A stretch of 64,000 bases of DNA, from NCBI RefSeq assembly GCF_034372165.1, contig NZ_CP139698.1:62001-126000 (forward strand), in the 5' to 3' direction. Under the pieces are notes generated by a model. That model was given only the letters and a program-made list of their open reading frames with translations, had not been told where the DNA came from and ran no database searches. A program made the translations under genes and the position numbers. The stretch comes from Christiangramia sp. OXR-203 (lineage in GTDB: Bacteria; Bacteroidota; Bacteroidia; Flavobacteriales; Flavobacteriaceae). The first letter of the stretch is position 1. Each line of letters starts with the position of its first letter. This document shows positions 3,313 through 17,918 of this stretch, piece after piece.

Positions 3313-3356
3313 TAAAAGTATTTCGCGGAAAGGCTCTAAAAAATGACGATTGTCAG
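3313..3356 (-). promoter_or_regulatory. ccoS-NO-Q-P promoter with FNR/FixK-like operator
   Basis: The palindrome TGAC-GATT-GTCA lies at 3344-3355 (centre 3349.5). On the minus strand TACTTTTA at 3313-3320 matches the Bacteroidota -7 consensus TAnnTTTG in all but the last base. The centres are 33 bp apart, which places the operator near -41.5, the position used by class II Crp/Fnr activators. The ccoS ATG is about 16 nt after the predicted start site. Confidence 0.75.
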
Positions 3357-3371
3357 CTTTGAGATTTTATT

Positions 3372-5756
3372 TTATTTTTTAAGCTTTTTTGATAGAATTT
3401 GAGTGGCCAGCGTTGTAAAGATCACGATGCTTATGGAGCTTAGCGGCATAAGGATCGCAGCGACCACGGGCATAAGATTCCCGGTGACTGCAAAGGCAAG
3501 TCCGGTAATATTATACACGAGAGATAGTATAAAGCTCGCCTGGATGATACTGACTCCCTTTTTAGCCAGATCAAAATAATCGGCTAAATTCGATAATATG
3601 GAGGCATCCATCACGCCATCACAGGCAGGAGAAAATACATTGATATTTTCTGAAACTGCAATTCCAATTTCACTTTGCGCAAGGGCTCCGGCATCATTCA
3701 GGCCATCTCCAACCATCATTACCTTGCGGCCTCCATGCTGTAGTTGTCTAATGAACTCAAGTTTATCACCGGGCTTCTGGTTAAAGTGTATTCCCGATTC
3801 CACAGGAAGTAAACTTTGCAAACGATCGCGCTCCCCCTCATTATCTCCGGAAAGTACAATGATGTATTTGTCCCTGGAAAGTTGCTGGAACAGGCCAGAC
3901 ATTCCTTTTCTATAAGTATTTCTAAAACTGAAGCAACCTTTATATTGCTCATTCGAACTTATATGAACTGCAGTTTTCCCATTACTAATTTCTTCGGAAT
4001 CACTTTCTCCGGTAAATCTTGCTGAGCCGATTTTTATACGATTTCCTTCGAAATCGCATTCAATTCCTGCGCCCACATATTCTTTATAGCTATCGGGCGT
4101 TCGTATACCGTGATGCTGAAGGATCGAATACAATGATCTACTTAAAGGATGTGAAGAGGCTTTTAGACTACCACCCAGCATTTGAAGTTCTTTATCACTT
4201 AGTTCAAGTCCCTCATATTCAGCAGTGGTTTGTCCCGTCGTGGTGATCGTTCCAGTTTTATCAAAAACTACTGTATCAATTGCCGCCATTCTTTCTATTA
4301 CTGAAGCGTCCTTTAGATAGATTCCTTTCTTTCCGAAAATTCTAAGCAGGTTACCAAGAGTAAAAGGCGCAGCAAGGGCGATCGCACAGGGACAGGCAAT
4401 AATTAATACCGCGGTGAATACGTTCCATGCTTTTGATGGATCTGCGAACAGCCAGAAAGTGGTAGCCAGGACTGCAATACTTAGCACGGCAATGGTAAAA
4501 TTTTTACTAATCCTGTTGGTAAGCGACTGGAAACCGAAAGATCTGTCCTTCTGGAACACCTCATTACTCCACAATTCGGTTAAATAGCTCTGCTCTACCG
4601 GCTTGAGAACCTTCAGTTTAATTATGCTGCCTTTTTGCCTTCCTCCTGCGTAGACTTTATCTCCTTCAGCTTTATTCACAAGGTCTGCTTCCCCGGTGAC
4701 AAAACTATAGTCAATGTTCGCCTGTCCTTCCAGAATTTCAGCGTCCATTGGGATAAGTTCTTCATTTCTAATGAGCACAGTATCACCTTTCCTGATCTTA
4801 TAAACCTGAACCTGTTCTTCAATTTGTTCTTCTTCAGAAGAGATACGGGTAACAGCAATAGGAAAATATGATTTATAATCTCTTTCAAAAGAAAGAAACG
4901 AATAGGTTTTTTGTTGAAAGAACTTTCCGAAAAGAAGGAAAAATACGAGTCCGCTAAGGCTATCGAAAAATCCCGTTCCCAGGTCGAGTACGATTTCTGC
5001 GGTACTTCTCACGAATAGCACGAAAATTCCCAGGGCAATAGGAACATCAATATTCAGCATTCCAGATCTAAGTCCTTTATAGGCAGAAATGAAATAATCC
5101 TTACCCGAATAAAAAACCACCGGCAGTGAAAAACTGAACATCAACCAGCGAAACAAATATTTGAACTGATCCAGCCAGAATTCATTGATTTCAAAATATT
5201 CAGGAAACGAAAGAAACATGATATTTCCAAAAGCAAAACCAGCAACCCCGAGTTTATAGATCAGGCTTCGATCATGCTCAGATTCTTTTTTCTCGAAATT
5301 GTCCAGAGAAATATTCGGTTCGTATCCAATCCTGCTAAGTAGGATTACCAGGTTTTTCAGGCTGATCTCTTCAGCAGTAAAACTCAGCCTGATCGTTTTC
5401 TTCGGAAAGTCGACCTGGGAGCTTTTCACTCCGTCATGAAGTTTATGAAGGTTTTCAAGGATCCAGATACAGGAACTACAATGTATAGATGGAATGCTGA
5501 ATGATACTATTTGTGTTTTCTCATGATCGAATTCCAGAAGCCTGTCTACAATCTCTGCATTTTCGAGGTATTCATATTTATCATCTTTTAGCTTTGGAGA
5601 AATTCCGGGCGCTTCCTGCAGGTCATAATAATAGGAGAGATCATTACTATTTAAGATCTCGAAAACAGTTTTACAACCAGCACAGCAAAATGATTTCTTC
5701 TCAAAGGTGATCAATTCCTCCAGGCAATCCTCGCCGCAATGAAAACATGATTCCAT
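3372..5756 (-). CDS. ccoI: copper-transporting P1B-type ATPase for cbb3 oxidase assembly (CcoI/FixI)
   Basis: Inner-membrane heavy-metal P-type ATPase of 794 residues that exports copper for CuB insertion into cbb3 oxidase. Visible parts in order: an N-terminal Cys cluster (CFHCGEDC and CCAGC, the domain typical of Bacteroidota FixI), a degenerate HMA domain with the metal site IHCSSC, the transmembrane metal motif CPCAIALAAP, the phosphorylation motif DKTGTITTTG, and the hinge GDGLNDAGAL. Length is normal. It is upstream of ccoS on the same strand but with its own operator-bearing promoter. The cbb3 context argues for FixI rather than general CopA. Confidence 0.93.
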   Translation of the reverse strand: MESCFHCGEDCLEELITFEKKSFCCAGCKTVFEILNSNDLSYYYDLQEAPGISPKLKDDKYEYLENAEIVDRLLEFDHEKTQIVSFSIPSIHCSSCIWILENLHKLHDGVKSSQVDFPKKTIRLSFTAEEISLKNLVILLSRIGYEPNISLDNFEKKESEHDRSLIYKLGVAGFAFGNIMFLSFPEYFEINEFWLDQFKYLFRWLMFSFSLPVVFYSGKDYFISAYKGLRSGMLNIDVPIALGIFVLFVRSTAEIVLDLGTGFFDSLSGLVFFLLFGKFFQQKTYSFLSFERDYKSYFPIAVTRISSEEEQIEEQVQVYKIRKGDTVLIRNEELIPMDAEILEGQANIDYSFVTGEADLVNKAEGDKVYAGGRQKGSIIKLKVLKPVEQSYLTELWSNEVFQKDRSFGFQSLTNRISKNFTIAVLSIAVLATTFWLFADPSKAWNVFTAVLIIACPCAIALAAPFTLGNLLRIFGKKGIYLKDASVIERMAAIDTVVFDKTGTITTTGQTTAEYEGLELSDKELQMLGGSLKASSHPLSRSLYSILQHHGIRTPDSYKEYVGAGIECDFEGNRIKIGSARFTGESDSEEISNGKTAVHISSNEQYKGCFSFRNTYRKGMSGLFQQLSRDKYIIVLSGDNEGERDRLQSLLPVESGIHFNQKPGDKLEFIRQLQHGGRKVMMVGDGLNDAGALAQSEIGIAVSENINVFSPACDGVMDASILSNLADYFDLAKKGVSIIQASFILSLVYNITGLAFAVTGNLMPVVAAILMPLSSISIVIFTTLATQILSKKLKK

Positions 5757-5780
5757 ATATCACATATAAAATTAAGGCTA

Positions 5781-5824
5781 CAAAACTGCCCAATTTGATC
5801 TCCTTAAAATATGACGGGCGTCAT
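5781..5824 (-). promoter_or_regulatory. ccoI promoter with FNR/FixK-like operator
   Basis: ATGAC-GGGC-GTCAT at 5811-5824 is a perfect 5+5 palindrome (centre 5817.5). On the minus strand CAGTTTTG at 5781-5788 is a 7/8 -7 box, again 33 bp from the operator centre. The ATG at 5756 is about 21 nt after the predicted start. Toward the divergent YceI gene the -7 match at the same spacing (5847-5854, AAGGTTTT) is poor, so control of that side is doubtful. Confidence 0.72.
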
Positions 5825-5956
5825 CGAATACATTCTTTAACACTATAAGGTTTTCGCTAGCTCACGAGGTTTTAAAATATTCCAAAACCTGACATTCATC
5901 ATAATTTACGTCCTATCCCTACAGCATCTTTGTACAGATTTAAAAATGTAAATGAT

Positions 5957-6535
5957 ATGAGACCTTACCAAACCATTAAGATGTTTACAGCTTTACTACT
6001 TATTAGCCTGGGAGTAAATGCTCAATCTTATCAATTAAATAATCGGGCTTCAACTTTATTTATTAATGGGACCTCCAATATCCATGACTGGACGATCGAA
6101 GCTGAAAATACCAGCGGACTTCTAATTACTGAATTTGACGATGGTTCACTGGAGGATATAGAACAACTCGAATTAAATGTGATCGCAGAAAGCCTGGTAA
6201 GTGGAAAAAGCGGAATGGATAAGAACACCTACAAGGCTTTAAACACTAATAAGTTTAAGGAAATCAACTTTAAACTGAAAAAGGTAGATCATATAGAAAA
6301 GCTCTCAAATAACACATATAACGTAAAGGCTACTGGAAACCTGATGATCGCTGGCTCTAAGAAGGACATCCAGCTACAGTTTTCTTTAAAAGCCGACTCT
6401 AATAAGTTGCTATTAAGTGGCCTTCACGAAATCAATATGACAAATTTCGGGATTGAAGCACCAACTGCCATGTTCGGGACCATTAAGACCGGCGATAAAG
6501 TGACCATAAAATTTGAAACTCAATTTAATAAGTAG
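5957..6535 (+). CDS. YceI-like domain secreted protein
   Basis: 192 residues from the ATG at 5957, with a signal peptide (MFTALLLISLGVNAQ) and then a YceI-type lipocalin-like barrel beginning YQLNNRASTLFINGTSNIHDW and ending in a strand typical of the family (GDKVTIKFETQF). YceI proteins bind polyisoprenoid chains in the periplasm; the ligand here is unknown. An upstream in-frame TTG at 5930 overlaps a probable -7 box (CATCTTTG, 5925-5932), so the ATG is preferred. A porin gene follows 24 bp downstream, and a second YceI-like gene lies beyond it. Confidence 0.85.
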   Translation: MRPYQTIKMFTALLLISLGVNAQSYQLNNRASTLFINGTSNIHDWTIEAENTSGLLITEFDDGSLEDIEQLELNVIAESLVSGKSGMDKNTYKALNTNKFKEINFKLKKVDHIEKLSNNTYNVKATGNLMIAGSKKDIQLQFSLKADSNKLLLSGLHEINMTNFGIEAPTAMFGTIKTGDKVTIKFETQFNK

Positions 6536-6559
6536 ACCTAACCTTAATCATTAGAAATC

Positions 6560-7858
6560 ATGAAAAATTCAATTAAATATCTCGTAATACTGCTCGTAGC
6601 CACTTTTGGACTACAAATGCAGGCCCAGGATAATAGTTTCTTCAAAAAATCACTTTTTGACCGTGACTTTGAGAACTTCAGGCATCCAGATCAAAGAGGA
6701 ATTAATGACTTTGAAGCTGCGAAAGATACCCTCACCAGTTTTGATGGGATCAATGTAAGAGTAGGTGGAGCTTTTGCACTACAATTTCAGGAAATAGATC
6801 ATGAAAACTCTGGAAACGAAGCGACACCTGCATTACAGGATATAGGAGGAAATTTTAACCTGGCAACTGCCAACCTGGATTTTGATGTACGACTGTATGA
6901 TGGAGTGCAATTGCACTTAAGAACTTATCTCTCTTCTCAAAATCATGAAGATACCTGGGTGAAAGGTGGATACCTTCAAATAGACAAGCTGGACTTTATT
7001 AGCGAAGGTTTTGCTGAAGACCTTATGAAGCACATGAGAATTAAAATAGGTCACATGGAGAATAACTACGGGGATGCTCATTTTAGACGGTCTGATAACG
7101 CAATGGCGCTTTACAACCCGTTTGTTGGTAACTACTTGATGGATAGTTTTACTACAGAGGTTGGTGCTGAGGTGTACTATTTTGACAAAGGATTTTTGGC
7201 CATGGTAGGTGCTACCAATGGTAAACTTAACCAATCTGTGACCAATCCAGAAAATACGAGCCCATCTCTACTTGCTAAAGTTGGTTATGACAGCTATTTA
7301 AAAGAAGACCTGAGGTTTAGATTAACAGGTTCTGTATACCATACCAACCAGACTGCCAGTGCTTACTTATATAGTGGTGACCGCGCAGGATCACGTTACT
7401 ACAACATATTTACAGATGTAAATGGCGCGGGAGACGGTTTTAGAGCTGCCCGGGTAAACCCAAACCTTAAAAATGAATTGACCTCTTTTATGATCAACCC
7501 ATTTGTAAAATATGGCGGACTCGAATTCTTCGGGATCTACGAAAGAGCTACCGGGAAAGCAGCTGAAGAAAGCGATACTAGAGCATGGAATCAATATGCC
7601 GGAGAACTGCTATACAGGTTTGGTAATAAAGAGCAACTCTATGTTGGAGGAAGATACAATTATGTGGATGGAGAATTAGCCACTGGAGAAAATGTAAGTG
7701 TAGATAGATTTAACCTTGGTGCCGGCTGGTTTATGACTAAAAATATCCTGGCGAAGATCGAATACATGAACCAGACTTACGACGACTATCCGGTATTTGA
7801 TGTTCATAACGATGGTGATGCTCATGGAATCGTATTCGAAGCCGTGATTAGTTTCTAG
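6560..7858 (+). CDS. outer-membrane beta-barrel porin-like protein
   Basis: 432 residues with a signal peptide (cleavage near LQMQAQ-DNS), then alternating-strand sequence rich in Gly and aromatic residues through to a C-terminal ...VFEAVISF, the terminal Phe typical of OMP barrels. The pattern resembles porins of the phosphate-selective OprP/OprO type, but the substrate cannot be read from sequence. It follows the first YceI gene by 24 bp and is ended by a strong terminator. YceI protein and porin may act together in the envelope, an inference from gene order only. Confidence 0.75.
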   Translation: MKNSIKYLVILLVATFGLQMQAQDNSFFKKSLFDRDFENFRHPDQRGINDFEAAKDTLTSFDGINVRVGGAFALQFQEIDHENSGNEATPALQDIGGNFNLATANLDFDVRLYDGVQLHLRTYLSSQNHEDTWVKGGYLQIDKLDFISEGFAEDLMKHMRIKIGHMENNYGDAHFRRSDNAMALYNPFVGNYLMDSFTTEVGAEVYYFDKGFLAMVGATNGKLNQSVTNPENTSPSLLAKVGYDSYLKEDLRFRLTGSVYHTNQTASAYLYSGDRAGSRYYNIFTDVNGAGDGFRAARVNPNLKNELTSFMINPFVKYGGLEFFGIYERATGKAAEESDTRAWNQYAGELLYRFGNKEQLYVGGRYNYVDGELATGENVSVDRFNLGAGWFMTKNILAKIEYMNQTYDDYPVFDVHNDGDAHGIVFEAVISF

Positions 7859-7872
7859 CATTGCTATAGTGA

Positions 7873-7931
7873 TTTCGGGTAGTAAACTAAAGTTCATCTT
7901 AAGATTTTAGTCTACTGCCCGAAATTTTTTA
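7873..7931 (+). terminator. intrinsic terminator after the porin gene
   Basis: A long inverted repeat: TTTCGGGTAGTAAACTAAA at 7873 pairs with TTTAGTCTACTGCCCGAAA ending at 7924 with only two non-Watson-Crick positions, followed by a T run. Confidence 0.8.
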
Positions 7932-7953
7932 TAAACCCCCTAATTGGCAAATC

Positions 7954-8523
7954 ATGATACGTTCTTACATAATGGGTCTAGCATTAATGATCTCCAGCAA
8001 CCTTATGGTAGCACAGGATTCCTATAGAAATGAGATCATCTCGATCCAACCTCATAGCGAATTGATCATTGCTGGTAGTACTAACGTTAATAAGTTTGAT
8101 TGTACGTTTGATATCGAACTCATATCCTCTCCAATAGCGATCGCTTACCAGAGGAAAGAGGATCTTGTAAAGCTCAAGGATCTCAAGCTTTCCTTACGAA
8201 CCAGTGGCTTTGATTGCGGTAATAAACGCATGAATGCAGATTTTCAGGATCTACTCATGTCCCATAAATATCCTGCAATAGAGATCGAAGTGAAACAACT
8301 GGAGCTTATCGCAGGAGACTATCAAAAAGCCTTCCTCCAGGTAACAATGGCTGGAAAAAGTAAACAGTATGAGCTACCGGTCCTGGTGAAAGATGACTTT
8401 TATAAAGGGAAACTTAGATTGAACATTAGAGACTTTGGACTGGAGCCACCACGCAAAGCACTTGGTCTAATTGAAGTGAATGAAATAATAAAAGTACAAT
8501 TCGATCTTAAAGTTGCTCGCTAG
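7954..8523 (+). CDS. second YceI-like domain secreted protein
   Basis: 189 residues with a signal peptide (MGLALMISSNLMVAQ) and a YceI-like barrel: HSELIIAGSTNVNKFDCTF at the start, MNADFQDLLMSHKYPAIEIEV in the middle, and a final strand EIIKVQFDLKV. It diverges clearly from the YceI protein at 5957, so this is not a recent duplication. It is separated from the porin by a terminator and followed 46 bp later by the acetyl-CoA hydrolase gene. Ligand unknown. Confidence 0.8.
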   Translation: MIRSYIMGLALMISSNLMVAQDSYRNEIISIQPHSELIIAGSTNVNKFDCTFDIELISSPIAIAYQRKEDLVKLKDLKLSLRTSGFDCGNKRMNADFQDLLMSHKYPAIEIEVKQLELIAGDYQKAFLQVTMAGKSKQYELPVLVKDDFYKGKLRLNIRDFGLEPPRKALGLIEVNEIIKVQFDLKVAR

Positions 8524-8569
8524 AATAAGTCTGTGATTTTTATTAAATTCTGAAATTAAATAACATAGT

Positions 8570-9847
8570 ATGCATCATCTCAAAGTAGTTTCAGCTCTGG
8601 AAGCTGTAGAACCTGTAAAAAGCAACCAAAGGATTTTTATCCAGGGCGCCGCCATGACACCTAATGTACTCATAGATGCTCTTTGCCATCGTTACCAGGA
8701 TCTCAAAAACGTAGAGATCATACAAATCCATACTGAAGGGAAAGCACTTTATACAGAAGCTCCGTACCATGACTCCTTTAAAACCAATAGTTGTTTTGTA
8801 GGTGGAAATGTAAGGAAAGCGGTCAATTCAAATTATGGGGCGTACATTCCAATTTTTCTAAGTGAGATCCATGTACTCTTCCGAAGAAATATATTACCGT
8901 TGGATTTTGCTTTTATCCAGGTATCTCCACCAGATAAGCACGGGTATTGTTCCCTGGGAGTTTCAGTAGACATCACGCTGCCCGCCATCCAAAACGCAAA
9001 AAAGGTCATTGCTCAGGTTAACCCTCAGGTACCAAGAACTCATGGTGATGGTATTATTCACATGAGCCAGATAGATGCTGTTGTAGAGGTAGACCAGCCA
9101 ATACATGCTGCTCATTTAGCAACTCCTACAGAGATAGAAAAAAAGATAGGAAGCCATGTAGCGGGTCTGGTAGAAGATGGGGCTACCCTGCAAATGGGTA
9201 TTGGTGGTATTCCCAATGTGGTGCTTAGCAATCTTACCAATCATAAAAGACTGGGGATTCATACCGAAATGTTCTCTGATGGAATTCTACCTTTAATTGA
9301 AAAAGGTGTGATCACTGGCGAAGAAAAAGAGATTAAAACCGGCAAACTGGTTACCTGTTTTGCGGTTGGTTCCCCGAAGTTATATGATTTCGTAGATGAT
9401 AATCCACTGGTGCATTTTAAGGAAGCTGCTTACACCAATGATACGGCCATCATTAGAAGGAATCCAAAGGTGACCGCGATCAACTCGGCGATAGAAATTG
9501 ACCTAACAGGCCAGGTTTGTGCAGATACCATCGGGAAAATACAATATTCTGGAGTGGGTGGACAAATGGACTTTATAAGAGGCGCTTCATTATCTCATGG
9601 AGGAAAAGCGATTTTTGCGATGCCCTCTGTAACCAGAAATGGAGTTTCCAAGATCGTTCCGTATCTAAAAGAAGGTGCCGGAGTGACCACCACCCGTGCT
9701 CATGTACATTACATTGCTACTGAATATGGAGTGGTTGATCTTTTCGGAAAGAATCTAAAACAACGAGCCGAGGCATTGATCTCGATAGCACATCCAGATC
9801 ACCAGGATGAATTAGCAAAACAGGCTTTTGAGCGGTTGAACGCCTAA
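8570..9847 (+). CDS. acetyl-CoA hydrolase/CoA-transferase family protein
   Basis: 425 residues of the acetyl-CoA hydrolase/4-hydroxybutyrate CoA-transferase family, cytoplasmic. The family pattern is clear: DFAFIQVSPPDKHGYCSLG near residue 120, GATLQMGIGGIPNVV near 205, HTEMFSDG, and the C-terminal half with YSGVGGQMDFIRGASLSHGG and TTTRAHVHYIATEYGVVDLFG. Such enzymes move CoA between acetate and other short acids, or hydrolyse acetyl-CoA, which fits overflow metabolism at low oxygen. The exact acyl donor cannot be decided. A terminator hairpin follows. Confidence 0.88.
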   Translation: MHHLKVVSALEAVEPVKSNQRIFIQGAAMTPNVLIDALCHRYQDLKNVEIIQIHTEGKALYTEAPYHDSFKTNSCFVGGNVRKAVNSNYGAYIPIFLSEIHVLFRRNILPLDFAFIQVSPPDKHGYCSLGVSVDITLPAIQNAKKVIAQVNPQVPRTHGDGIIHMSQIDAVVEVDQPIHAAHLATPTEIEKKIGSHVAGLVEDGATLQMGIGGIPNVVLSNLTNHKRLGIHTEMFSDGILPLIEKGVITGEEKEIKTGKLVTCFAVGSPKLYDFVDDNPLVHFKEAAYTNDTAIIRRNPKVTAINSAIEIDLTGQVCADTIGKIQYSGVGGQMDFIRGASLSHGGKAIFAMPSVTRNGVSKIVPYLKEGAGVTTTRAHVHYIATEYGVVDLFGKNLKQRAEALISIAHPDHQDELAKQAFERLNA

Positions 9848-9873
9848 AGCTTAATTAATTTTTATACCGAAAG

Positions 9874-9911
9874 CGGAACGAATTTATACTGAAAGCGTTC
9901 CGTTTCTTATT
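9874..9911 (+). terminator. intrinsic terminator after the CoA-transferase gene
   Basis: CGGAACG at 9874-9880 pairs with CGTTCCG at 9896-9902; a flanking GAAAG/TTTC extends the stem with one bulge, and a T-rich tail follows. Confidence 0.65.
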
Positions 9912-9979
9912 TTATATCTGTTTATAACTGAAGATCAATTACTTCAGAAATAATATTTCAGGGATAGAAGAGCTGTTTA

Positions 9980-10023
9980 ATGACTGTGGTCATATTTTAG
10001 AAGAATGCCTGAGGCTATTTTTA
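9980..10023 (+). promoter_or_regulatory. globin-operon promoter with FNR/FixK-like operator
   Basis: ATGAC-TGTG-GTCAT at 9980-9993 (centre 9986.5) is a perfect 5+5 palindrome. TATTTTTA at 10016-10023 is a 7/8 -7 box with its centre 33 bp downstream. The predicted start site near 10027 lies beyond the ATG at 10005, so translation should begin at the ATG at 10047. Confidence 0.75.
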
Positions 10024-10046
10024 CACCATCATTAAAACTAGAAATC

Positions 10047-10331
10047 ATGACTTTTTATCAAAAACAACTTTCAGAATTTACAAGAGATTTTTACGCAGGA
10101 GCATCTACAGGGATTATCGTTTCAAGTTGTCTTGGATCTATTGCAGCCATGCTTATACTAATGAATGGTCACGCACTGGCAGATATGATCCAGCTTGGAA
10201 TGATCGTAGTGGCCTGTATGTGGTACAATGCTTCAGTCCTGGCACAGTTAAAAGCAAAATTCGTTTTTAATTCTTTAATTATTAGCATATTAATGAGTAC
10301 TACCTTCATTCTTATCAATATCTTTCAGTAG
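10047..10331 (+). CDS. small three-span membrane protein, function unknown
   Basis: 94 residues from ATG 10047 (MTFYQKQLSEF). An upstream in-frame ATG at 10005 would give 108 residues but lies before the predicted transcription start. A short amphipathic N-terminus is followed by three hydrophobic segments at about residues 20-39, 47-66 and 72-92. I recognise no family. It directly precedes the truncated globin gene (the stop TAG abuts the globin ATG), so the two are surely co-transcribed. The arrangement suggests a membrane partner of the globin or of the respiratory chain, an inference only. Confidence 0.7.
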   Translation: MTFYQKQLSEFTRDFYAGASTGIIVSSCLGSIAAMLILMNGHALADMIQLGMIVVACMWYNASVLAQLKAKFVFNSLIISILMSTTFILINIFQ

Positions 10332-10724
10332 ATGCAGAAAGATGTAAAGAATCGTGAGGATATTTATAAACTGGTACTGGAATTTTACAGAAAAGTTCGA
10401 GAGAATGAGGAAATAGGTTACTTTTTCAATACGACCATCCAGGATTGGGAATCGCACCTGGAAAAGATCACAGATTTTTGGGAAAGTAACCTCTTTTTTA
10501 CCGGTAGTTTTCAAGGAAATCCTGCTATTGCCCACGTAAAAGTTGACATGGCACATCAACATACCATTACCGAATATCACTTTGGTATCTGGCTCAACCT
10601 CTGGTTCCAAACTATAGATAAGCTTTTTAAAGGAGAAATGGCCTCCCGCCTTAAAAATAATGCTCGCAAGATGTCTACACACCTATTCCTTAGGATCTAC
10701 CAGGGCAGACATTTAAAAAATTAA
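10332..10724 (+). CDS. group III truncated hemoglobin
   Basis: 130 residues with the layout of Campylobacter Ctb-type group III truncated globins. The B10 Tyr (Y19 in LEFYRKV), E7-region His (H42 in WESHLEKI), proximal F8 His (H68 in IAHVKVD) and G8 Trp (W87 in FGIWLNLW) can all be assigned. Family members bind oxygen and NO and are linked to NO tolerance or oxygen handling under microaerobic conditions. It sits immediately after the small membrane protein under the operator-bearing promoter at 9980-10023. Confidence 0.9.
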   Translation: MQKDVKNREDIYKLVLEFYRKVRENEEIGYFFNTTIQDWESHLEKITDFWESNLFFTGSFQGNPAIAHVKVDMAHQHTITEYHFGIWLNLWFQTIDKLFKGEMASRLKNNARKMSTHLFLRIYQGRHLKN

Positions 10725-10854
10725 ATATCTAATTTTTTATCTTAAAGGCTGGATTATTCAGTTCCTGCTGAGTCTATCGGCTTCATTCTTTTATACGCTG
10801 TGTAGAATACTAAGCAATTTGAAGCAGATTCATCAAGAAATGACTTTAGAAGTT

Positions 10855-11622
10855 TTAACCGTGGTACACGAAAATAGGGATCTCCACATTCATCTCTGAC
10901 GAAAATCCATGCCTGGAATGAAGCAGTCTATCACAGATGCTCAAATTTTTCCCAACCACGAATATAATATGAAACTGTCTCTGAATTTCTCTGAATAGAT
11001 CACGGGTAAATGGAACAGGAGTTTTAAAAGGAATATCCCTGTTATCCTCATTTGGATATTTAATATCCCCATCTTTAATCTCAAGCAGTGTAAATTGAGA
11101 AGATTGTAAGAATTGAAGTTTGTCCAGAATATTGTTCTGTTCCTGCACTGCTAAGACTGCGGGGTCTACTGGAAAAACCGTCTTTTCAGGTTTCTCATAC
11201 GTACATCCTCCAGGTACGGCAATAATGTTGCACTTAATCTTTCTAACTACCTCATAGGCATGATCCCCAAGAATTGGATGGGCATGCTCATTCTGGCTTA
11301 CTGCGCCAATAAAGATCAAGTCAATCTTCTTATCTATGAGTGCTTTTCTAATAGCACCTATAAGATTTTCTGAAGACAGAATAAGATCGAATTTATGCAA
11401 TTTTGGTTTAGAATACTCGCCAAGAGAATCCACGGTGCTCTGTAGCGCATCGAGCGTGGAAACCAATTCCTTTTCCAGGCCTTTACTAGCAGATCTCTCA
11501 AAATTAAAGTTATGAATATTCAGAATATGAAAATTCACTTCCTTATCATGAAGGAAATCTACCGCATATTTACCTGCATTGGTCGAGGTTTCTGAAAAAT
11601 CGGTTAGTATTAGAACATTCAT
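10855..11622 (-). CDS. universal stress protein family, tandem-domain type
   Basis: 255 residues. The N-terminal half is a UspA fold (MNVLILTDFSETSTNAGKYAVDFL, then KIDLIFIGA...GDHAYEVVRKIKCNIIAVPGG). The C-terminal half (about 150-255) has lost clear motifs, including the second glycine-rich ATP site. Cytoplasmic Usp proteins respond to energy or oxygen limitation; no target is predictable. It is a single-gene unit convergent with the globin gene, with its own operator-bearing promoter. Confidence 0.85.
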   Translation of the reverse strand: MNVLILTDFSETSTNAGKYAVDFLHDKEVNFHILNIHNFNFERSASKGLEKELVSTLDALQSTVDSLGEYSKPKLHKFDLILSSENLIGAIRKALIDKKIDLIFIGAVSQNEHAHPILGDHAYEVVRKIKCNIIAVPGGCTYEKPEKTVFPVDPAVLAVQEQNNILDKLQFLQSSQFTLLEIKDGDIKYPNEDNRDIPFKTPVPFTRDLFREIQRQFHIIFVVGKNLSICDRLLHSRHGFSSEMNVEIPIFVYHG

Positions 11623-11641
11623 CTATCTTCACTTAATACAG

Positions 11642-11684
11642 CGAAATTAGGCGAAGTCCTTCTGCAAAAAAATGATTAAAATCA
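11642..11684 (-). promoter_or_regulatory. usp promoter with FNR-like operator
   Basis: TGAT-TAAA-ATCA at 11673-11684 (centre 11678.5) uses the TGAT/ATCA arms of the classical FNR box rather than TGAC/GTCA. On the minus strand TAATTTCG at 11642-11649 is a one-mismatch -7 box with its centre 33 bp away. The ATG at 11622 is about 16 nt after the predicted start. Confidence 0.62.
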
Positions 11685-11711
11685 GTTCTTACAAATTTAA
11701 TGAGCTAGTGA

Positions 11712-12752
11712 TCATTTTACCATTTTCAATGCCTGTGAATCCAGTAATTTTATATTCCTACCCTCGATCTCAATAAGTCCTTCTTTTTTAAATTCTGAAA
11801 GAGTTCTTATTAAACTTTCCGGAGCCATTCCTGCAACTCCAGCCAGGTCTGCTCTTGAAATTCTGATACTTTTCAGCGGATGTTTTTCGATCCTTTCAGC
11901 AAATAAAAGAATAGTGTTGGCCGTTTTCTTTCTTACTGAGCCGTAGGCCATATCCATTAATTGCTTTTTTAGCTCAGACAGGTTGTTGTTCAAAACCTCA
12001 ACCAGTTGCATCGTGATCCTGGGGTTTCCAGCAAGGATCTTTTGAAATTCCTCTCTCGAAACCGTATACAACTGAGTCTCTTCCATAGCGGTGGCATAAT
12101 CTTCATAGGATGACTGAGGATCATTTGCGTGGTTTCCGAAAAAATCATCTTCCTTATACAGCTCGGTGATCAACTCCTTTCCCTGGTTATCCAGGCGATG
12201 AGCCTTTACAATCCCACGTTTAACGAGATAGAAATAATTCGCGTGTTTATCTTTCTCATAAATGGTTTCTCCCTTTTTAAAATACTGGAGTTCCTGTTTT
12301 GAGAATAGCTCCCTGAGATCGTTCAGGTCCTTCAGCTTCTCCTCATCCTCAGGGGTTTCCTCTTTGATATAAGATTTTAGAATTGCCACTTTTGCGAGCC
12401 TGCTTTCAATAGCACTTAACAACTCTTCTTCTTCAAAAGGTTTGGTCAAATAATCATCTGCGCCCAGGTCCATTCCTTTGCGAATATCCTTATGTTCGGT
12501 TTTTGCTGAAAGAAATATAAATGGAATATTTAGAGTTGAAGGATTTTTACTGAGAGCTTCTAAAACTCCATAACCGTCGATCTCTGGCATCATGATATCA
12601 CAAATAATGATATCAGGAATTTCCTGCTGCGCGGTCTCGATTCCAAGTTTTCCATTAGACGCGGTGATCACATCGTAATTGGAAAGTTCTAGCAATTCTG
12701 CCGTATTTTCCCGCACTGTGACATCATCCTCTATTAGCAACAATTTTTTCAT
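11712..12752 (-). CDS. response regulator fused to a Crp/Fnr-type transcription factor (FixJ/FixK-like fusion)
   Basis: 346 residues. Residues 1-120 are a receiver domain with phospho-acceptor D52 (CDIMMPEIDGYG), acidic E8-D10, and K104 in LTKPF. Residues about 145-265 are a cyclic-nucleotide-binding-type domain, and about 275-335 a Crp-type winged helix with recognition helix PESLIR. E312 and R316 match the DNA-contacting E209 and R213 of FNR; FNR S212 is replaced by I315. The only cysteine seen is next to D52, so there is no FNR-type Fe-S cluster and the input should come through phosphorylation. It lies 24 bp after the PAS kinase gene. It is the best local candidate to bind the TGAC-N4-GTCA palindromes. 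Confidence 0.93.
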   Translation of the reverse strand: MKKLLLIEDDVTVRENTAELLELSNYDVITASNGKLGIETAQQEIPDIIICDIMMPEIDGYGVLEALSKNPSTLNIPFIFLSAKTEHKDIRKGMDLGADDYLTKPFEEEELLSAIESRLAKVAILKSYIKEETPEDEEKLKDLNDLRELFSKQELQYFKKGETIYEKDKHANYFYLVKRGIVKAHRLDNQGKELITELYKEDDFFGNHANDPQSSYEDYATAMEETQLYTVSREEFQKILAGNPRITMQLVEVLNNNLSELKKQLMDMAYGSVRKKTANTILLFAERIEKHPLKSIRISRADLAGVAGMAPESLIRTLSEFKKEGLIEIEGRNIKLLDSQALKMVK

Positions 12753-12776
12753 AAGTCGGCTTAAAATTTTATCAGG

Positions 12777-14027
12777 TTAGGACTTATCCATAGGAACTTC
12801 TATGGTAAAAGTGGTTCCTTTATTTTCTTCGCTTTCAAACTGGATCGTTCCTCCCAGGTTTTCAAGATGAGTTTTCGCAATGTTCAATCCAATTCCTGTT
12901 CCCTGGTCCAGCAAAGCATTTTCTGCTCTAAAATATCGCTCAAAAATATGTTTTTGATCTTTCTTCGGAATCCCTCTCCCCTGATCTTTAATTTTGAAAA
13001 CGATTAGATCATCATGGAAATCTACCATGAATTGAATGGAAGTATTTTCAGGAGAATATTTGATCGCGTTGCCTAATAGATTGGAAAGAATCAATTCAAG
13101 GATCTTTTCATCCATAAAAAGCTCTACATCTTCGATATCTTTTGGGTAAGAGATCTCCTGACCATCCTTGAGGGTAATATTTGCATTGTAAATGACTTCG
13201 TTAATAAGTCGCTTTAACCTGAATTTTGAAAATTTGTACTGTCCTCTTCCGCTGTCCAGACGTTCAATGGAAAGGAAATCATTCAGAATATTATTGAGGT
13301 AATGAACCTTATTCCTAATGGTCACGAGATGCTTCTCGCGCTTAGGCTGTTGTTCTTCTTTGGTATATTTTTCAGCAAGAGTAGCAGAAGTGAGGATTCC
13401 GCTCAAGGGAGTTTTAAATTCGTGAGATACCAGTGAAAGGAACTTGGTTTTTAGTTCATTAAGCTCTTTTTCTTTCTGAAGAGCATCTTTGATCTTTTCT
13501 TCAGCTTCTTTTCTACGATTGATCTCTTCGCCAAGTTCGACGTTCAGGTTTTTAAGATCTTCTACACTTTCACTTAGTTCCCGGGTTCTAAGTTCAATTT
13601 TCTCTTCCAGCTCAGTATTTAGCTCTCTAATTTGCCTTTGGGTCTCCTTACGGATCGTGATATCGATAATTAGCGACATCACATACTTTTCACCATCGAT
13701 CTCAAATGGATTAAGACCTGCTTCCACAGGAAATAGTGAACCATCCTTTCGTACACCATAAAGATCACGGCCATGACCCATCTGGCGTTTTTCACTATTA
13801 TCAATAAACTGATCTACGTGTTTATGATGCACATGATGGTAGTCTTTGGGTACCAGACGATCAAGATGTTGACTCAATAATTCCCCTTGCTTATAACCAA
13901 ACATTTCTTCAGCAGCAAGATTAGCTGCAACTACGATCTGCCTAGAGTCGACTACAATGATACCTTCAGAAGCTGCCTGGAACAGTAAATTAAGAATGTT
14001 CTTATTATCGAAAAAGTTTTCCTGCAA
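12777..14027 (-). CDS. PAS-domain sensor histidine kinase, FixL-like
   Basis: 416 residues without membrane segments, so cytosolic. A PAS domain (about 12-128) is followed by a coiled coil (about 130-190), HisKA with phospho-acceptor H202 (SHEFKTPLSG) and an HATPase with DQGRGIPKKDQ and GTGIGLNIAK. By hand alignment with rhizobial FixL, H67 (in HHVHHKH) falls on the heme-ligating His200 and R87 (in GHGRDLYG) on Arg220, both 20 residues apart. Heme binding is therefore plausible but unproven, since related PAS domains share these residues. It is transcribed just before the receiver-Crp/Fnr fusion and is its likely partner. Confidence 0.92.
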   Translation of the reverse strand: MQENFFDNKNILNLLFQAASEGIIVVDSRQIVVAANLAAEEMFGYKQGELLSQHLDRLVPKDYHHVHHKHVDQFIDNSEKRQMGHGRDLYGVRKDGSLFPVEAGLNPFEIDGEKYVMSLIIDITIRKETQRQIRELNTELEEKIELRTRELSESVEDLKNLNVELGEEINRRKEAEEKIKDALQKEKELNELKTKFLSLVSHEFKTPLSGILTSATLAEKYTKEEQQPKREKHLVTIRNKVHYLNNILNDFLSIERLDSGRGQYKFSKFRLKRLINEVIYNANITLKDGQEISYPKDIEDVELFMDEKILELILSNLLGNAIKYSPENTSIQFMVDFHDDLIVFKIKDQGRGIPKKDQKHIFERYFRAENALLDQGTGIGLNIAKTHLENLGGTIQFESEENKGTTFTIEVPMDKS

Positions 14028-14091
14028 AGTGGGTTTCGTTTAAGATCACTAAGTTAAAATCTTTTTTATGATCCCCCATAAACTTGAGGCC

Positions 14092-14316
14092 TTATTCGTC
14101 TAGACCTGGAGTATGATCCTGATATCCATCCTTGAATGTTTTGCTGGTTTTATAATCATCGGTAAGGACTTTATAAACTGTAATGAGAAACAGTGCCTGA
14201 CCTGCGATCATGAGGTAAAAAACCGGTGCGAAACCAGTTCCTGTAGAAGCCAGTATGGTGAGAAGCAATAGCATCACACTGGTAATGATCAAAAAAGTTA
14301 TTCCTGTAATTTTCAT
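14092..14316 (-). CDS. small two-span membrane protein, function unknown
   Basis: 74 residues: two hydrophobic segments (about 5-24 and 31-49), then a polar tail DDYKTSKTFKDGYQDHTPGLDE. No family recognised. It lies 64 bp before the PAS kinase gene on the same strand and may be the first gene of a three-gene unit with the kinase and regulator. The nearby operator at 14400-14413 fits the opposite strand better; on this strand a -7-like TATTTTAG is at 34 rather than 33 bp, so shared control is possible. Confidence 0.65.
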   Translation of the reverse strand: MKITGITFLIITSVMLLLLTILASTGTGFAPVFYLMIAGQALFLITVYKVLTDDYKTSKTFKDGYQDHTPGLDE

Positions 14317-14399
14317 TGTTTTCTATTTAATTTACAGAAAATTAGAAGGAACGATTCATAATATTTATCTAAAATAGTTGAAGATAGATCAATATTTTC

Positions 14400-14443
14400 A
14401 TGATTTCTGTCATATTTTTTCACGCATGTATCTTTTAGCTTTA
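14400..14443 (+). promoter_or_regulatory. hpf-usp promoter with FNR/FixK-like operator
   Basis: ATGAT-TTCT-GTCAT at 14400-14413 (centre 14406.5) mixes a TGAT and a GTCA arm. TAGCTTTA at 14436-14443 is a 7/8 -7 box with its centre 33 bp downstream. The ATG at 14469 is about 22 nt after the predicted start. Confidence 0.68.
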
Positions 14444-14468
14444 CGTATCGACCAAAAATTGTGATATT

Positions 14469-14768
14469 ATGCTCAACCAGATACACTATGTGAAAATTCC
14501 TGAAAGTCCCGCACTGAGCAACTTTACGAACCGGAAATTAGATCTGCTTCGTCGAAGATATGATACCATACAGAATTTGCATGTTCATTTTAAGCTGGAA
14601 AACACCAGGCAGGGAAATGCTAAAGTTTGCGCGATAGAATGCACAACTCCGGGCTTCAGGATTCATGCCAGCGCTACCAGGGAATATTTTGAACACGCAT
14701 TAAAGACGGCTATGAACGAGTTGATAAAACAGCTTGAAAAGAGAAATGCCGTATTACAGATTGTCTAA
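14469..14768 (+). CDS. ribosome hibernation factor, HPF/RaiA-like
   Basis: 99 residues in the short HPF/YfiA fold: strands around YVKIPESPALSNFTNRKLDLLRRRY, KVCAIECTTPGFRIHASATREYFEHALKTAMNELIKQLEKR. Family members bind the 30S decoding region and silence ribosomes in stationary phase or stress. The long-HPF C-terminal dimerisation domain is absent. It is first in a two-gene unit with a universal stress protein (16 bp gap) under an operator-bearing promoter, which suggests ribosome sparing at low oxygen. Confidence 0.78.
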   Translation: MLNQIHYVKIPESPALSNFTNRKLDLLRRRYDTIQNLHVHFKLENTRQGNAKVCAIECTTPGFRIHASATREYFEHALKTAMNELIKQLEKRNAVLQIV

Positions 14769-14784
14769 TTAAAAGCTAAGTATC

Positions 14785-15618
14785 ATGAAAACTATATTCG
14801 TACCCGTAGACTTTTCAAAATATTCTGAAAACGCCCTCGAAGTGGCCGCCGACTTGGCGAAAAAACATGGTTCCCGGATCATTCTCGCACATATGCTTGA
14901 AATAGCTAACTCCTACCTCACCAAGGATCAACAGCAGGAAGTATTTAACGTGATGTATTATATAAAGATCGCAGACCAGCATTTCAAAGAACTTCGGAAG
15001 AAGGAATACCTTAAAGGGATTGAAGTAGTGGAAGTGATGAAGCCCTATCGAATTTTCTCTGAAATTAATACCATCGCTGCGGAACATGATAGCGATTTAA
15101 TCGTGATGGGATCTCATGGAGCGACGGGTATAAAAGAGGTTTTTATCGGTTCCAATACCGAAAAAGTGGTGCGCACAGCAGATATTCCCGTACTCGTTAT
15201 CAAGGAAAGAAGTCCAGACTTCCATATTGATAAAGCAGTGTTCGTAACCGATTTTGATGATAGCAACCAGGATACTTTTAAAAAGGCCAGGAAGTTCTTT
15301 AGTTATTTTGACGTTGAGCCTAAGTTGCTATATATTAATATTCCTGAAAAATTTATGAGCACAGCCGAAATAAAACGTAACGCACATAATTTTATGAGTA
15401 CTGCAGGTATTGATCCTTCAGACTTCGACAAACACGTAGTATTTTATGCTGATTATACCGCTGAAAGAGGTGTCTTCAATTATTGTGAAGAAGCGAAAAT
15501 TGATGCTATCGCTATTTCAACGCATGGTAGAAAAGGTCTGGGGCATTTCTTCTATGGCAGTGTAGGAGAAGATGTTGCAAATCATGCTAATGTTCCAGTC
15601 ATCACCTTTAAGATCTGA
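14785..15618 (+). CDS. universal stress protein, tandem UspA domains
   Basis: 277 residues with two complete Usp domains. The first (1-147) opens MKTIFVPVDFSKYSENALEVA and has the ATP-type loop GSHGATGIKEVFIGSNTEKV. The second (about 152-277) has STHGRKGLGHFFYGSVGEDV. Both G-2x-G-9x-G(S/T) loops look intact, unlike the Usp gene at 10855. Co-transcribed with the HPF-like gene; a terminator follows. Confidence 0.92.
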   Translation: MKTIFVPVDFSKYSENALEVAADLAKKHGSRIILAHMLEIANSYLTKDQQQEVFNVMYYIKIADQHFKELRKKEYLKGIEVVEVMKPYRIFSEINTIAAEHDSDLIVMGSHGATGIKEVFIGSNTEKVVRTADIPVLVIKERSPDFHIDKAVFVTDFDDSNQDTFKKARKFFSYFDVEPKLLYINIPEKFMSTAEIKRNAHNFMSTAGIDPSDFDKHVVFYADYTAERGVFNYCEEAKIDAIAISTHGRKGLGHFFYGSVGEDVANHANVPVITFKI

Positions 15619-15628
15619 AAAATGAAGA

Positions 15629-15660
15629 AGGGAGCTACAAGTTATTGGCTCCCTTTTTTA
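15629..15660 (+). terminator. terminator between usp and deoD
   Basis: GGGAGC at 15630-15635 pairs with GCTCCC at 15648-15653, then a run of T. It ends the plus-strand unit just before the convergent deoD stop. Confidence 0.75.
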
Positions 15661-15678
15661 TTCTGAAACTAGAATATA

Positions 15679-16377
15679 CTAGAAAGAATTCAGTGCTATG
15701 TTCACCATATCGCTGAGTTTTTGCTCTCTCATTTCTGCGGAAATTTCTTCAGTAGTTACCAGTGAATCAGAAATAGTTAAAATGGATAATGCTTTCACTC
15801 CAAATTTGGCAGCCAGCGTGTATATTGCCGCAGTTTCCATTTCAGCACAAAGCACTCCATAATTAGCCCATTGTTTAAAATAATCAGGGTTCTCATCATA
15901 AAAGAAGTCAGATGAGAGAACGTTACCGGCATGAAACGTAATAGTGCTTTTTTCCGCAAAATTTATGGCCTTTAGTAAAAGGTCGATATTGGCGGTTGGA
16001 GCAAAGTCGGCACTACCAAATACAGCTCTGTTCAAGGAAGAATTTGTAGAAGCCGACATGGCGATCACAATATCCATCAATTTTAGCTCTGGCTGGAAAG
16101 CACCGGCGCTACCAACCCGGATAAGGTTTTGAACCTTATAGGTCTCCAGCAATTCCTGACAATAAATGAGCGTAGATGGAATGCCCATTCCCGTTCCCTG
16201 TACCGACACCCTTTTTCCCCGGTAAGTTCCTGTAAAGCCCAGCATCCCCCGAATATTATTATAGCAAAAACTATCTTCGAGAAAGGTTTCAGCGATCCAC
16301 TTTGCCCGTAAAGGATCCCCGGGAAGTAAGACCGTTTCGGATATATCACCTTTTTTCGCTTCTAAATGTATACTCAT
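15679..16377 (-). CDS. deoD: purine nucleoside phosphorylase, DeoD type
   Basis: 232 residues of the hexameric bacterial PNP family, cytoplasmic; it phosphorolyses purine (deoxy)ribonucleosides. The opening SIHLEAKKGDISETVLLPGDPLRAKWIAE contains the phosphate-binding GDPLRA, followed by TGTYRGKRVSVQGTGMGIPS, IRVGSAGAFQ and the substrate-binding EMETAAIY; SDSL near residue 205 holds the expected catalytic Asp. It is transcribed in the hemN direction but no operator of the local type was seen before it. Confidence 0.95.
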   Translation of the reverse strand: MSIHLEAKKGDISETVLLPGDPLRAKWIAETFLEDSFCYNNIRGMLGFTGTYRGKRVSVQGTGMGIPSTLIYCQELLETYKVQNLIRVGSAGAFQPELKLMDIVIAMSASTNSSLNRAVFGSADFAPTANIDLLLKAINFAEKSTITFHAGNVLSSDFFYDENPDYFKQWANYGVLCAEMETAAIYTLAAKFGVKALSILTISDSLVTTEEISAEMREQKLSDMVNIALNSF

Positions 16378-16490
16378 TTTGTTTGTATTGCTTTAGTTTC
16401 TGATGTGATTCAGAGATCGATCAATTCCTCTTTTTAGTAATCTATGTTGTAAAAACTGTCGAATAGTGGAATAAAAGTATCGCTTAATAT

Positions 16491-17858
16491 CTATACTGTC
16501 ATTGAAAATAATTTCGCATCAGGTTTTTTCCTGATTAACCTGAGATCAAAAGCCATACACACATTTCTAACAAATGGCCTTCCTTTCTCGGTAACAATGA
16601 TATAATTTGAATCTCTTTCTATGAGTCCGTCATCTGCCATCTCCTGTAAACTAATAAGGACATCAGGTAATTCCTGGAAAGTTTGATCTGCCGTATACCA
16701 GGAAGTTTTCAGTTTACACATTATATTGAGAACATGTTTTCTAATAATCAGATCTTCTTCGTTTAAAATATGTCCTCTTAATAAAGGGAGCATCCCATTA
16801 TTCACCAGATTTTGATATTCTTCCACACCCTTAACATTCTGGGCGAAACCATACCAGCTATCACTAATCGCAGAAACACCAAGCCCTAACATAGCCTGAG
16901 TTTTCGAAGCCGTGTAGCCCATAAAATTTCTATGAAGCGTTTTATTATCTAATGCCATACTGAGAGTATCAGATTTGAGGGCGAAGTGATCCATCCCAAT
17001 TTCCACATAACCGGCATTTAATAACATTTGTTTACCAGTTTCATACTGCACGCGTTTTTCAGCCGCTGTTGGAACATCCTTCTCGTTAAAACCTCTCTGC
17101 CCGCTACCTTTGATCCATGGAACATGGGCGTAACTATAAAATGCGATCCTGTCTGGCATAAGATCAAGGGTACGTTGCATGGTATAAATGATATCGTTTC
17201 TGGTCTGAAATGGCAATCCAAAGATAATATCATGACCTACTGAAGTAAATCCAGCTTCCCTTGCATTTTGCGTTGCAAGTAGGACATTTTCATACGACTG
17301 AACTCTATGAATAGCTTTCTGTACTTCTGGGTTATAATCCTGAACTCCATAGCTTACCCGGGTAAATCCAAACTTTGCAAACAGCTCGAGATGTTCCCTA
17401 CTGGTATTATTGGGATGCCCTTCAAAACTAAATTCGGAAGCTTTAGATCTTTTAGCGCGTTTAAATATTCCTTCCAGTAGATAGCCCAGGTTTTCAGCAG
17501 AAAAGAAAGTGGGAGTTCCTCCCCCCAGGTGCAGTTCCCTGATGACCGGTTTTTCCGGAAATAAAGTACAGTACATCTCCCATTCTTTTAGAACCGAATT
17601 GATATAGGGAACCTCCATTCCATGGTTTTTTGTAATTCTTTTGTTACAACCACAAAAAGTGCAAAGACTTTCACAGAATGGCAGATGTATGTAAAGACTT
17701 ATACCTTCAGAAGAATTCGATTCTCTAAAACTTTGAAGTAGCGATGATTTCCAGGCACTTTCTGAAAAGCTGTCCTGATCCCAGTAAGGCACGGTTGGAT
17801 AGCTGGTATACCTTGGACCCTGGATATTATACTTCTGAACTAAGGCTGAATGAGTCAT
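16491..17858 (-). CDS. hemN: oxygen-independent coproporphyrinogen III oxidase
   Basis: 455 residues, a cytoplasmic radical-SAM enzyme that makes protoporphyrinogen IX without oxygen. The 4Fe-4S motif is HLPFCESLCTFCGCNK, with the extra Cys of true HemN after CxxxCxxC. GGGTPTF and the SAM-binding strands follow, and the HemN C-terminal domain is complete, so this is HemN rather than the HemW chaperone. It serves heme supply for cbb3 oxidase and globin under low oxygen and carries the same promoter architecture (17875-17918). Confidence 0.95.
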   Translation of the reverse strand: MTHSALVQKYNIQGPRYTSYPTVPYWDQDSFSESAWKSSLLQSFRESNSSEGISLYIHLPFCESLCTFCGCNKRITKNHGMEVPYINSVLKEWEMYCTLFPEKPVIRELHLGGGTPTFFSAENLGYLLEGIFKRAKRSKASEFSFEGHPNNTSREHLELFAKFGFTRVSYGVQDYNPEVQKAIHRVQSYENVLLATQNAREAGFTSVGHDIIFGLPFQTRNDIIYTMQRTLDLMPDRIAFYSYAHVPWIKGSGQRGFNEKDVPTAAEKRVQYETGKQMLLNAGYVEIGMDHFALKSDTLSMALDNKTLHRNFMGYTASKTQAMLGLGVSAISDSWYGFAQNVKGVEEYQNLVNNGMLPLLRGHILNEEDLIIRKHVLNIMCKLKTSWYTADQTFQELPDVLISLQEMADDGLIERDSNYIIVTEKGRPFVRNVCMAFDLRLIRKKPDAKLFSMTV

Positions 17859-17874
17859 AGTAAAATTTTGAATT

Positions 17875-17918
17875 CAAAACTATGAACAGGTTCAAAAAGG
17901 AAATATGACAACCGTCAG
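17875..17918 (-). promoter_or_regulatory. hemN promoter with FNR/FixK-like operator
   Basis: TGAC-AACC-GTCA at 17906-17917 (centre 17911.5). On the minus strand TAGTTTTG at 17875-17882 matches TAnnTTTG at all fixed positions, with its centre 33 bp away. The hemN ATG at 17858 is about 13 nt after the predicted start. This is the best -7 box of the six. Confidence 0.78.

Follow-up and report, generated by a model that had tools for sequence, protein, structure and literature searches.

Palindromes at a fixed distance from the -7 box in a Christiangramia gene cluster: candidate class II operators of a receiver-Crp regulator and a FixL-like kinase

The window analysed here, a stretch of 64,000 nucleotides, corresponds to positions 62001-126000 of the 3.395-Mb single-contig genome of Christiangramia sp. 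OXR-203. It carries a cluster of genes for a cbb3 oxidase and its assembly (ccoS, ccoNO, ccoI), a YceI-like protein, a truncated haemoglobin, two universal stress proteins (Usp), a protein of the hibernation-promoting factor family (hpf) and the oxygen-independent coproporphyrinogen III oxidase HemN. The genes of a response regulator, in which a receiver is fused to a Crp-type DNA-binding module (REC-Crp), and of a FixL-like histidine kinase both lie inside the same cluster. Seven promoters share a TGAY-N4-RTCA palindrome at one fixed distance from a -7 box (Table 1), and we consider it probable that these sites are class II operators of a Crp/Fnr-type activator, most likely REC-Crp switched by the FixL-like kinase.

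The original prediction had described six such palindromes, centred at 3349.5, 5817.5, 9986.5, 11678.5, 14406.5 and 17911.5, and all six were found at these centres. On the strand facing the gene, 23 nucleotides (nt) separate each of them from the 8-nt box proposed for it, so that the claimed centre distance of 33 base pairs (bp) is exact. A seventh site, which had been missed, is centred at 5895.5 and is oriented towards the YceI gene, the divergent neighbour of ccoI. The box of the usp promoter, TAATTTCG, is one base off NAnnTTT, and the hpf-usp operator has hpf on one side and, on the other, the divergently oriented genes orf74, kinase and regulator. The two-fold TGA-N6-TCA operator is that of a class II Crp/Fnr-dependent promoter.

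Table 1. Genes of the cluster and the seven operators with their -7 boxes (positions in the window)
Feature	Position	Strand	Remarks
ccoNO, fused cbb3 oxidase subunits I/II	901..3096	-	NCBIfam NF011053, above cut-off
ccoS, 64 codons	3099..3293	-	first gene of ccoS-ccoNO operon; shorter than the minimum of the open reading frame list
ccoS-ccoNO operator TGACAATCGTCA	3344..3355	-	-7 box TACTTTTA at 3313-3320
ccoI, heavy-metal P-type ATPase	3372..5756	-	P-type ATPase match
ccoI operator TGACGCCCGTCA	5812..5823	-	-7 box CAGTTTTG at 5781-5788
YceI operator TGACATTCATCA	5890..5901	+	-7 box CATCTTTG at 5925-5932
YceI-like protein	5930..6535	+	PF04264; first gene divergent from ccoI
Globin-operon operator TGACTGTGGTCA	9981..9992	+	-7 box TATTTTTA at 10016-10023
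Group III truncated haemoglobin	10332..10724	+	PDB 2ig3, E 1.6e-13
Universal stress protein (usp)	10855..11622	-	PF00582
usp operator TGATTTTAATCA	11673..11684	-	-7 box TAATTTCG at 11642-11649
REC-Crp response regulator, proposed activator	11712..12752	-	receiver + cNMP-binding + HTH_Crp_2
PAS-HisKA-HATPase kinase, proposed sensor	12777..14027	-	FixL-like PAS
hpf-usp operator TGATTTCTGTCA	14401..14412	+	-7 box TAGCTTTA at 14436-14443
Hibernation-promoting factor family (hpf)	14469..14768	+	PF02482; just under TIGR00741 cut-off
Universal stress protein	14785..15618	+	PF00582
hemN, oxygen-independent coproporphyrinogen III oxidase	16491..17858	-	TIGR00538, above cut-off
hemN operator TGACGGTTGTCA	17906..17917	-	-7 box TAGTTTTG at 17875-17882

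The same arrangement recurs across relatives. In 80 named loci (1.55 Mb), TAnnTTT stands 23 nt after the palindrome in 338 cases, against 2-35 cases for every other spacing from 0 to 60. The original prediction had raised the possibility that the pattern is equally frequent inside genes; strong depletion was seen there instead, with a box following 329 of 455 palindromes in 238 kb outside genes and 14 of 79 in 1,315 kb inside them (genes being taken as open reading frames, ORFs, of 120 amino acids or more). Outside genes the combination thus reaches about 130 times the density found inside them, though ORFs span 5.5 times more DNA. For 312 of the 338 sites a start codon could be assigned, at a median distance of 59 bp from the centre of the operator.

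From 362 sites an extended consensus was derived, AAM-TGAY-N4-RTCA-T-W-T-rich followed by TAnnTTTR. Since the sites were picked by the pattern, only the columns outside it count as independent, and amongst these the base after RTCA is T in 94%, the first base of the box is T in 93% and its final base is a purine in 96%, while the base preceding the core is C in 51%, A in 33% and T in 10%. With the box fixed as TAnnTTT(A/G) at spacing 23, the next base after the palindrome is T in 317 cases, G in 8, A in 4 and C in 2. FNR boxes have T before and A after the TGAY-N4-RTCA core; the operator set therefore does not follow the FNR-type TTGAT-N4-ATCAA, and the earlier statement that it differs from the standard FNR box is confirmed in that the core is FNR-like but the flanks are mostly C/A before and T after.

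Mapped promoters of F. psychrophilum have the -7 box at -12 to -5, according to PMC9723704, which together with the 33-bp distance places the operator centre at -41.5, the fixed position of class II promoters, as judged by the -7 position of another flavobacterium. The class II Crp/Fnr geometry that had been proposed is therefore supported by the rigid spacing in 80 loci, the depletion inside genes and the mapped flavobacterial -7 position. The sites are real, and sequence alone could hardly make a stronger case for their class II geometry.

Within the window, the pattern with up to one mismatch gave 16 matches against 3.61 expected (standard deviation 1.77; maximum of 100 shuffles 8). Genome-wide, the exact pattern has 13 matches in 3,395 kb, and the seven that belong to the cluster represent six palindromes, as the ccoI palindrome is also matched from its other side, where a box stands by chance; the usp site is missing because of its one mismatch. 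The six exact matches outside the cluster comprise two inside ORFs, one at a start codon and three of TTGAY-N4-RTCAA form. Sites of this latter form that keep the 33-bp distance to a -7 box are seen in L008, L293 and L294 (C1:2348682, 1330322 and 1856381), followed by genes that by eye resemble a metallo-hydrolase next to a Crp gene, PfpI and serine acetyltransferase, respectively.

A scoring profile trained on other genomes only (338 sites) was run on the window and about 203 kb of further stretches of the genome (overlaps included). It gives 19.6-29.2 bits for six of the seven sites and 12.2 bits for the next best place in the window, and the best score in 256 kb of Markov sequence is 6.2 bits. 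Outside the cluster, an operator of 18.1 bits with the box TACATTCG was observed at C1:2075531 (- strand, L272), between two divergent genes for small secreted, HYC_CC_PP-like proteins; it is likely to be a further target. The description of the set as a local regulon thus stands largely for this genome, where 7 of the 13 exact matches fall within 15 kb and one further good candidate was found, but not for relatives, where matches per genome are far more numerous.

Usp is the commonest downstream gene (154 of 312 ORFs, in 74 loci), followed by a 134-residue protein type with no Pfam match (42) and by hpf (18) and ccoS (10), with thioredoxin (5) and Hsp20 (4) among the smaller groups; 26 of the 338 TA-box sites have no assignable ORF, and family names come from one representative per cluster. 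Sites were also counted around the ORF starts of homologues, in a span reaching 260 bases upstream and 130 bases downstream, omitting homologues that start within 150 bases of a locus end, so that some sites may belong to a neighbour. On this basis a site precedes 9 of 10 ccoN homologues, 6 of 9 ccoI homologues (80 loci), 4 of 4 YceI homologues, 5 of 6 homologues of the small protein preceding the globin and 19 of 22 hpf homologues, and lies near 116 of 186 Usp homologues. PMC9723704 reports that under oxygen limitation the cbb3 oxidase is strongly up and heme-synthesis enzymes are up; Crp and Fnr do not occur in its main text. Low-oxygen control of the set is suggested by its target genes and by the FixL-like kinase.

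Some assignments in the cluster deserve comment. The name ccoI is given to the P-type ATPase because the gene sits beside ccoS/N, and a ccoS-related protein from another locus was identified as FixS (PF03597). The truncated haemoglobin has no match in Pfam or NCBIfam. The start listed for the YceI gene, TTG 5930, falls within the -7 box, and the real one is probably ATG 5957; likewise the small protein gene before the globin (listed 10005-10331) probably starts at ATG 10047, the listed start being upstream of the -7 box at 10016-10023.

The closest named relative of REC-Crp, from Christiangramia lutea, is 88% identical, and matches were found in 67 of 149 family genomes, in one case to the receiver only. 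The phospho-acceptor set D9, D10, D52, S82 and K104 is invariant in 15 regulators. The C-terminal half resembles NCBIfam FixK (E 7.8e-19; 67.8 bits, cut-off 300) and CRP (E 4.6e-18), both below cut-off. REC-Crp departs from FixJ, FixK and FNR: the receiver is fused to cNMP_binding and HTH_Crp_2 domains rather than to the LuxR-type helix-turn-helix of FixJ, FixK is a stand-alone Crp-type protein with no receiver, and the single cysteine (C51), without an N-terminal cysteine cluster, does not provide for the [4Fe-4S] cluster of FNR.

The PAS domain of the kinase matches FixL structures best (E 1.5e-16). H67 aligns with the FixL heme-histidine column and is kept in 75 of 80 aligned kinases, and R87 aligns with the distal-arginine column and is kept in 62 of 80. 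By sequence the protein thus has the make-up of FixL, namely a PAS domain with a predicted proximal heme histidine and distal arginine joined to a histidine kinase. In the 200 bp before 79 kinase genes (L094-L173) 54 palindromes were noted, 35 with G and 15 with T as the next base. A -7 box stands 9-12 nt away from 12 of them, 24-26 nt from 13 and 23 nt from 3, while 18 have no such box; they perhaps reflect autoregulation.

Sister genera appear to use a different protein. Thirteen chosen genomes without REC-Crp were compared, and an FNR-like protein (E 1e-43) was detected in 6 of 6 pattern-rich and 0 of 7 pattern-poor ones. Of 30 FNR-like loci (L210-L239), 20 were used, the 10 from genomes also having REC-Crp being set aside. 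They hold 20 sites at spacing 23, of which 19 lie before ccoI, the divergent neighbour of the FNR-like gene, so that ccoI keeps its operator in 19 of the 20 loci. In 17 loci the palindrome at 23 nt from the ccoI box also stands 9 nt from the FNR-like gene's own -7 box, so that a single element is shared by both genes. The 9-nt spacing looks like autorepression, and the arrangement suggests activation toward ccoI together with autorepression toward the FNR-like gene.

Pattern density was compared in 147 of the 149 family genomes (G147 and G148 left out), with no correction for relatedness, the same FNR-like threshold, and G002, which has a receiver match only, excluded from the REC-Crp group. 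Per Mb it is 2.98 with neither regulator (control 1.66; 26 genomes), 5.85 with the FNR-like protein only (control 1.56; 55), 7.10 with REC-Crp only (control 1.16; 31) and 10.24 with both (control 1.35; 35). The density is therefore raised with either regulator and highest with both, kinship between genomes being ignored.

REC-Crp is likely to be the activator in this genome, and oxygen sensing through heme in the kinase is a supported inference. For heme and oxygen response, phosphotransfer, binding and activation we infer the following course. Oxygen leaving the heme would activate the FixL-like heme-PAS kinase, which would pass phosphate to the adjacent REC-Crp; bound at about -41.5, this activator would touch RNA polymerase on the Bacteroidota -7 box (TAnnTTTR) and stand in for a proper -33 element. 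Low oxygen would thereby switch on cbb3 oxidase assembly (ccoS, ccoNO, ccoI) and oxygen-independent heme synthesis (hemN) along with the truncated globin, the YceI operon and proteins of dormancy type (Usp, HPF). The FNR-like protein, with its closely similar recognition helix, would read operators of this kind in sister genera.

A number of observations weigh against single sites or against this mechanism. The ccoI site has a low profile score (7.5 bits), despite which it is conserved in relatives, and other places in the scanned stretches score 18.1, 16.0, 15.0 and 14.6 bits. Conservation is weak for hemN, with a site before 1 of 11 homologues, and a full site precedes the REC-Crp gene itself in 0 of 85 cases. 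The cross-genome tests ignore relatedness; the 26 genomes with neither regulator are still somewhat above control, G048 (82% complete) has 35 pattern matches with neither regulator found, and some genomes having the FNR-like protein only are pattern-poor, the lowest at 1.43 per Mb. A CRP/FNR homologue of a Flavobacteriales metagenome-assembled genome was assigned by another group to carbon sensing, MalR-like (PMC8510549). Finally, an E-x-x-S-R helix is present in two further Crp-type proteins of this genome, L176 and L179, which might recognise related sites.

This last point leads to an alternative which we regard as unlikely, namely that the class II sites are real but their activator is another Crp-type protein (L176, L177, L178 or L179), REC-Crp doing something else. 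Crp-type proteins were found with PF13545 and PF00027, PF00325 (Crp) having no match in this genome, and there are six cNMP-binding matches, one within a CBS/nucleotidyltransferase-type protein. REC-Crp is not the sole carrier of the helix glutamate, since L176 and L179 have it too, and TTGAY-N4-RTCAA sites occur elsewhere in the genome at the 33-bp spacing, one directly after L179. These sites, however, differ from the seven of the cluster in having T in front of the core and A behind it, and L177 and L178 lack the helix glutamate (by eye). The recognition helix of REC-Crp is APESLIRTLSEFKKEGL in the window, ATESLIRTxSExKKxGL in two relatives, and ATESAIRxLSQFKKEG in the FNR-like protein; among the Crp-type proteins found here, the E-x-x-I-R helix is shared with the FNR-like protein only by REC-Crp, which lies in the cluster and tracks pattern density. 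FNR has serine at the isoleucine place of the helix and binds TTGAT. The sequences fit a rule by which helix isoleucine goes with C/A, and serine with T, before TGA; this correlation comes from a single genome. The same geometry may be used by a second Crp-type regulator with other flanks.

Still less probable is that the seven sites are repressor operators, for instance of a Crp-type repressor acting at high oxygen. Repressor-like positions do exist, at 9 nt from the FNR-like gene's -7 box in 17 of 20 loci and at 9-12 nt in 12 of the 54 palindromes before kinase genes, but the seven sites and most of those in relatives keep one rigid spacing, which fits class II activation and which a repressor does not need. 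As to accident, the original prediction had found the set hard to ascribe to chance, and although the pattern is short, the genomes are AT-rich and a reversed control also yields some matches, the idea that base composition of promoters produces palindromes and TAnnTTT boxes is left with a negligible probability by the shuffles, the spacing spike, the profile scores, the depletion in genes and the sites kept in orthologous promoters; chance is refuted for the set as a whole, while single sites (hemN, YceI) could be silent.

Returning to REC-Crp as activator, we lean towards a wider view in which one operator code, M-TGAY-N4-RTCA-T at -41.5 on TAnnTTTR promoters, is used across Flavobacteriaceae with two interchangeable sensors, the FNR-like protein and the pair of heme kinase and REC-Crp. 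The FNR-like protein has no match in the window genome at E 1e-25; the ccoI operator is kept and the YceI operon occupies the place expected for the FNR-like gene. In this lineage the FNR-like gene would have been lost, the ccoI operator would have stayed and the two-component system would have taken over the regulon.

The designs underlying such a system, FixL, FixK, FNR and class II activation, are known. FixJ consists of a receiver and a LuxR-type helix-turn-helix. The FixL-FixJ-FixK cascade of alphaproteobacteria is alike in its FixL-like PAS kinase and its Crp/Fnr-type output on cco and hemN, but here receiver and Crp-type module form one protein with no LuxR-type FixJ between, the site flanks are different and the promoters are of the Bacteroidota -7 type. 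The cytochrome cbb3 (cco) and hemN genes are given as FixK targets in PMC4999443. The chain would thus be shortened here to two proteins. FNR/Anr systems are alike in the TGAY-N4-RTCA core, the class II position and the low-oxygen type of target, and sister genera would use an FNR-like relative on operators of this kind; FNR itself has an N-terminal cysteine cluster and operator flanks of T and A, whereas REC-Crp has one cysteine and no such cluster, and its proposed operators are flanked by C/A and T. In the DosR/DevR dormancy regulon of mycobacteria a heme-sensor two-component system controls many Usp, Hsp20 and hibernation-type genes; the apparent likeness in dormancy-type targets goes with a difference in design, DosR being a LuxR-type regulator without a Crp domain.

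No open-access paper was found, by title or abstract start, that describes either the operator or the FixL/REC-Crp pair in Bacteroidota. As far as the searched literature shows, three features are new: an operator code of this kind at Bacteroidota promoters, a system reduced to two proteins, and sensors that are exchanged while the operator set stays fixed. Bacteroidota promoters lack the usual -10/-35 boxes and, to our knowledge, transcription control in this phylum is poorly mapped. That an operator recurs hundreds of times at a strict -41.5 suggests that the -7 (TAnnTTTG) promoter is open to class II activation. The operator profile may serve as a search tool for low-oxygen regulons across a large bacterial family, and the family would offer a natural example in which sensors of two different designs act on one operator set.

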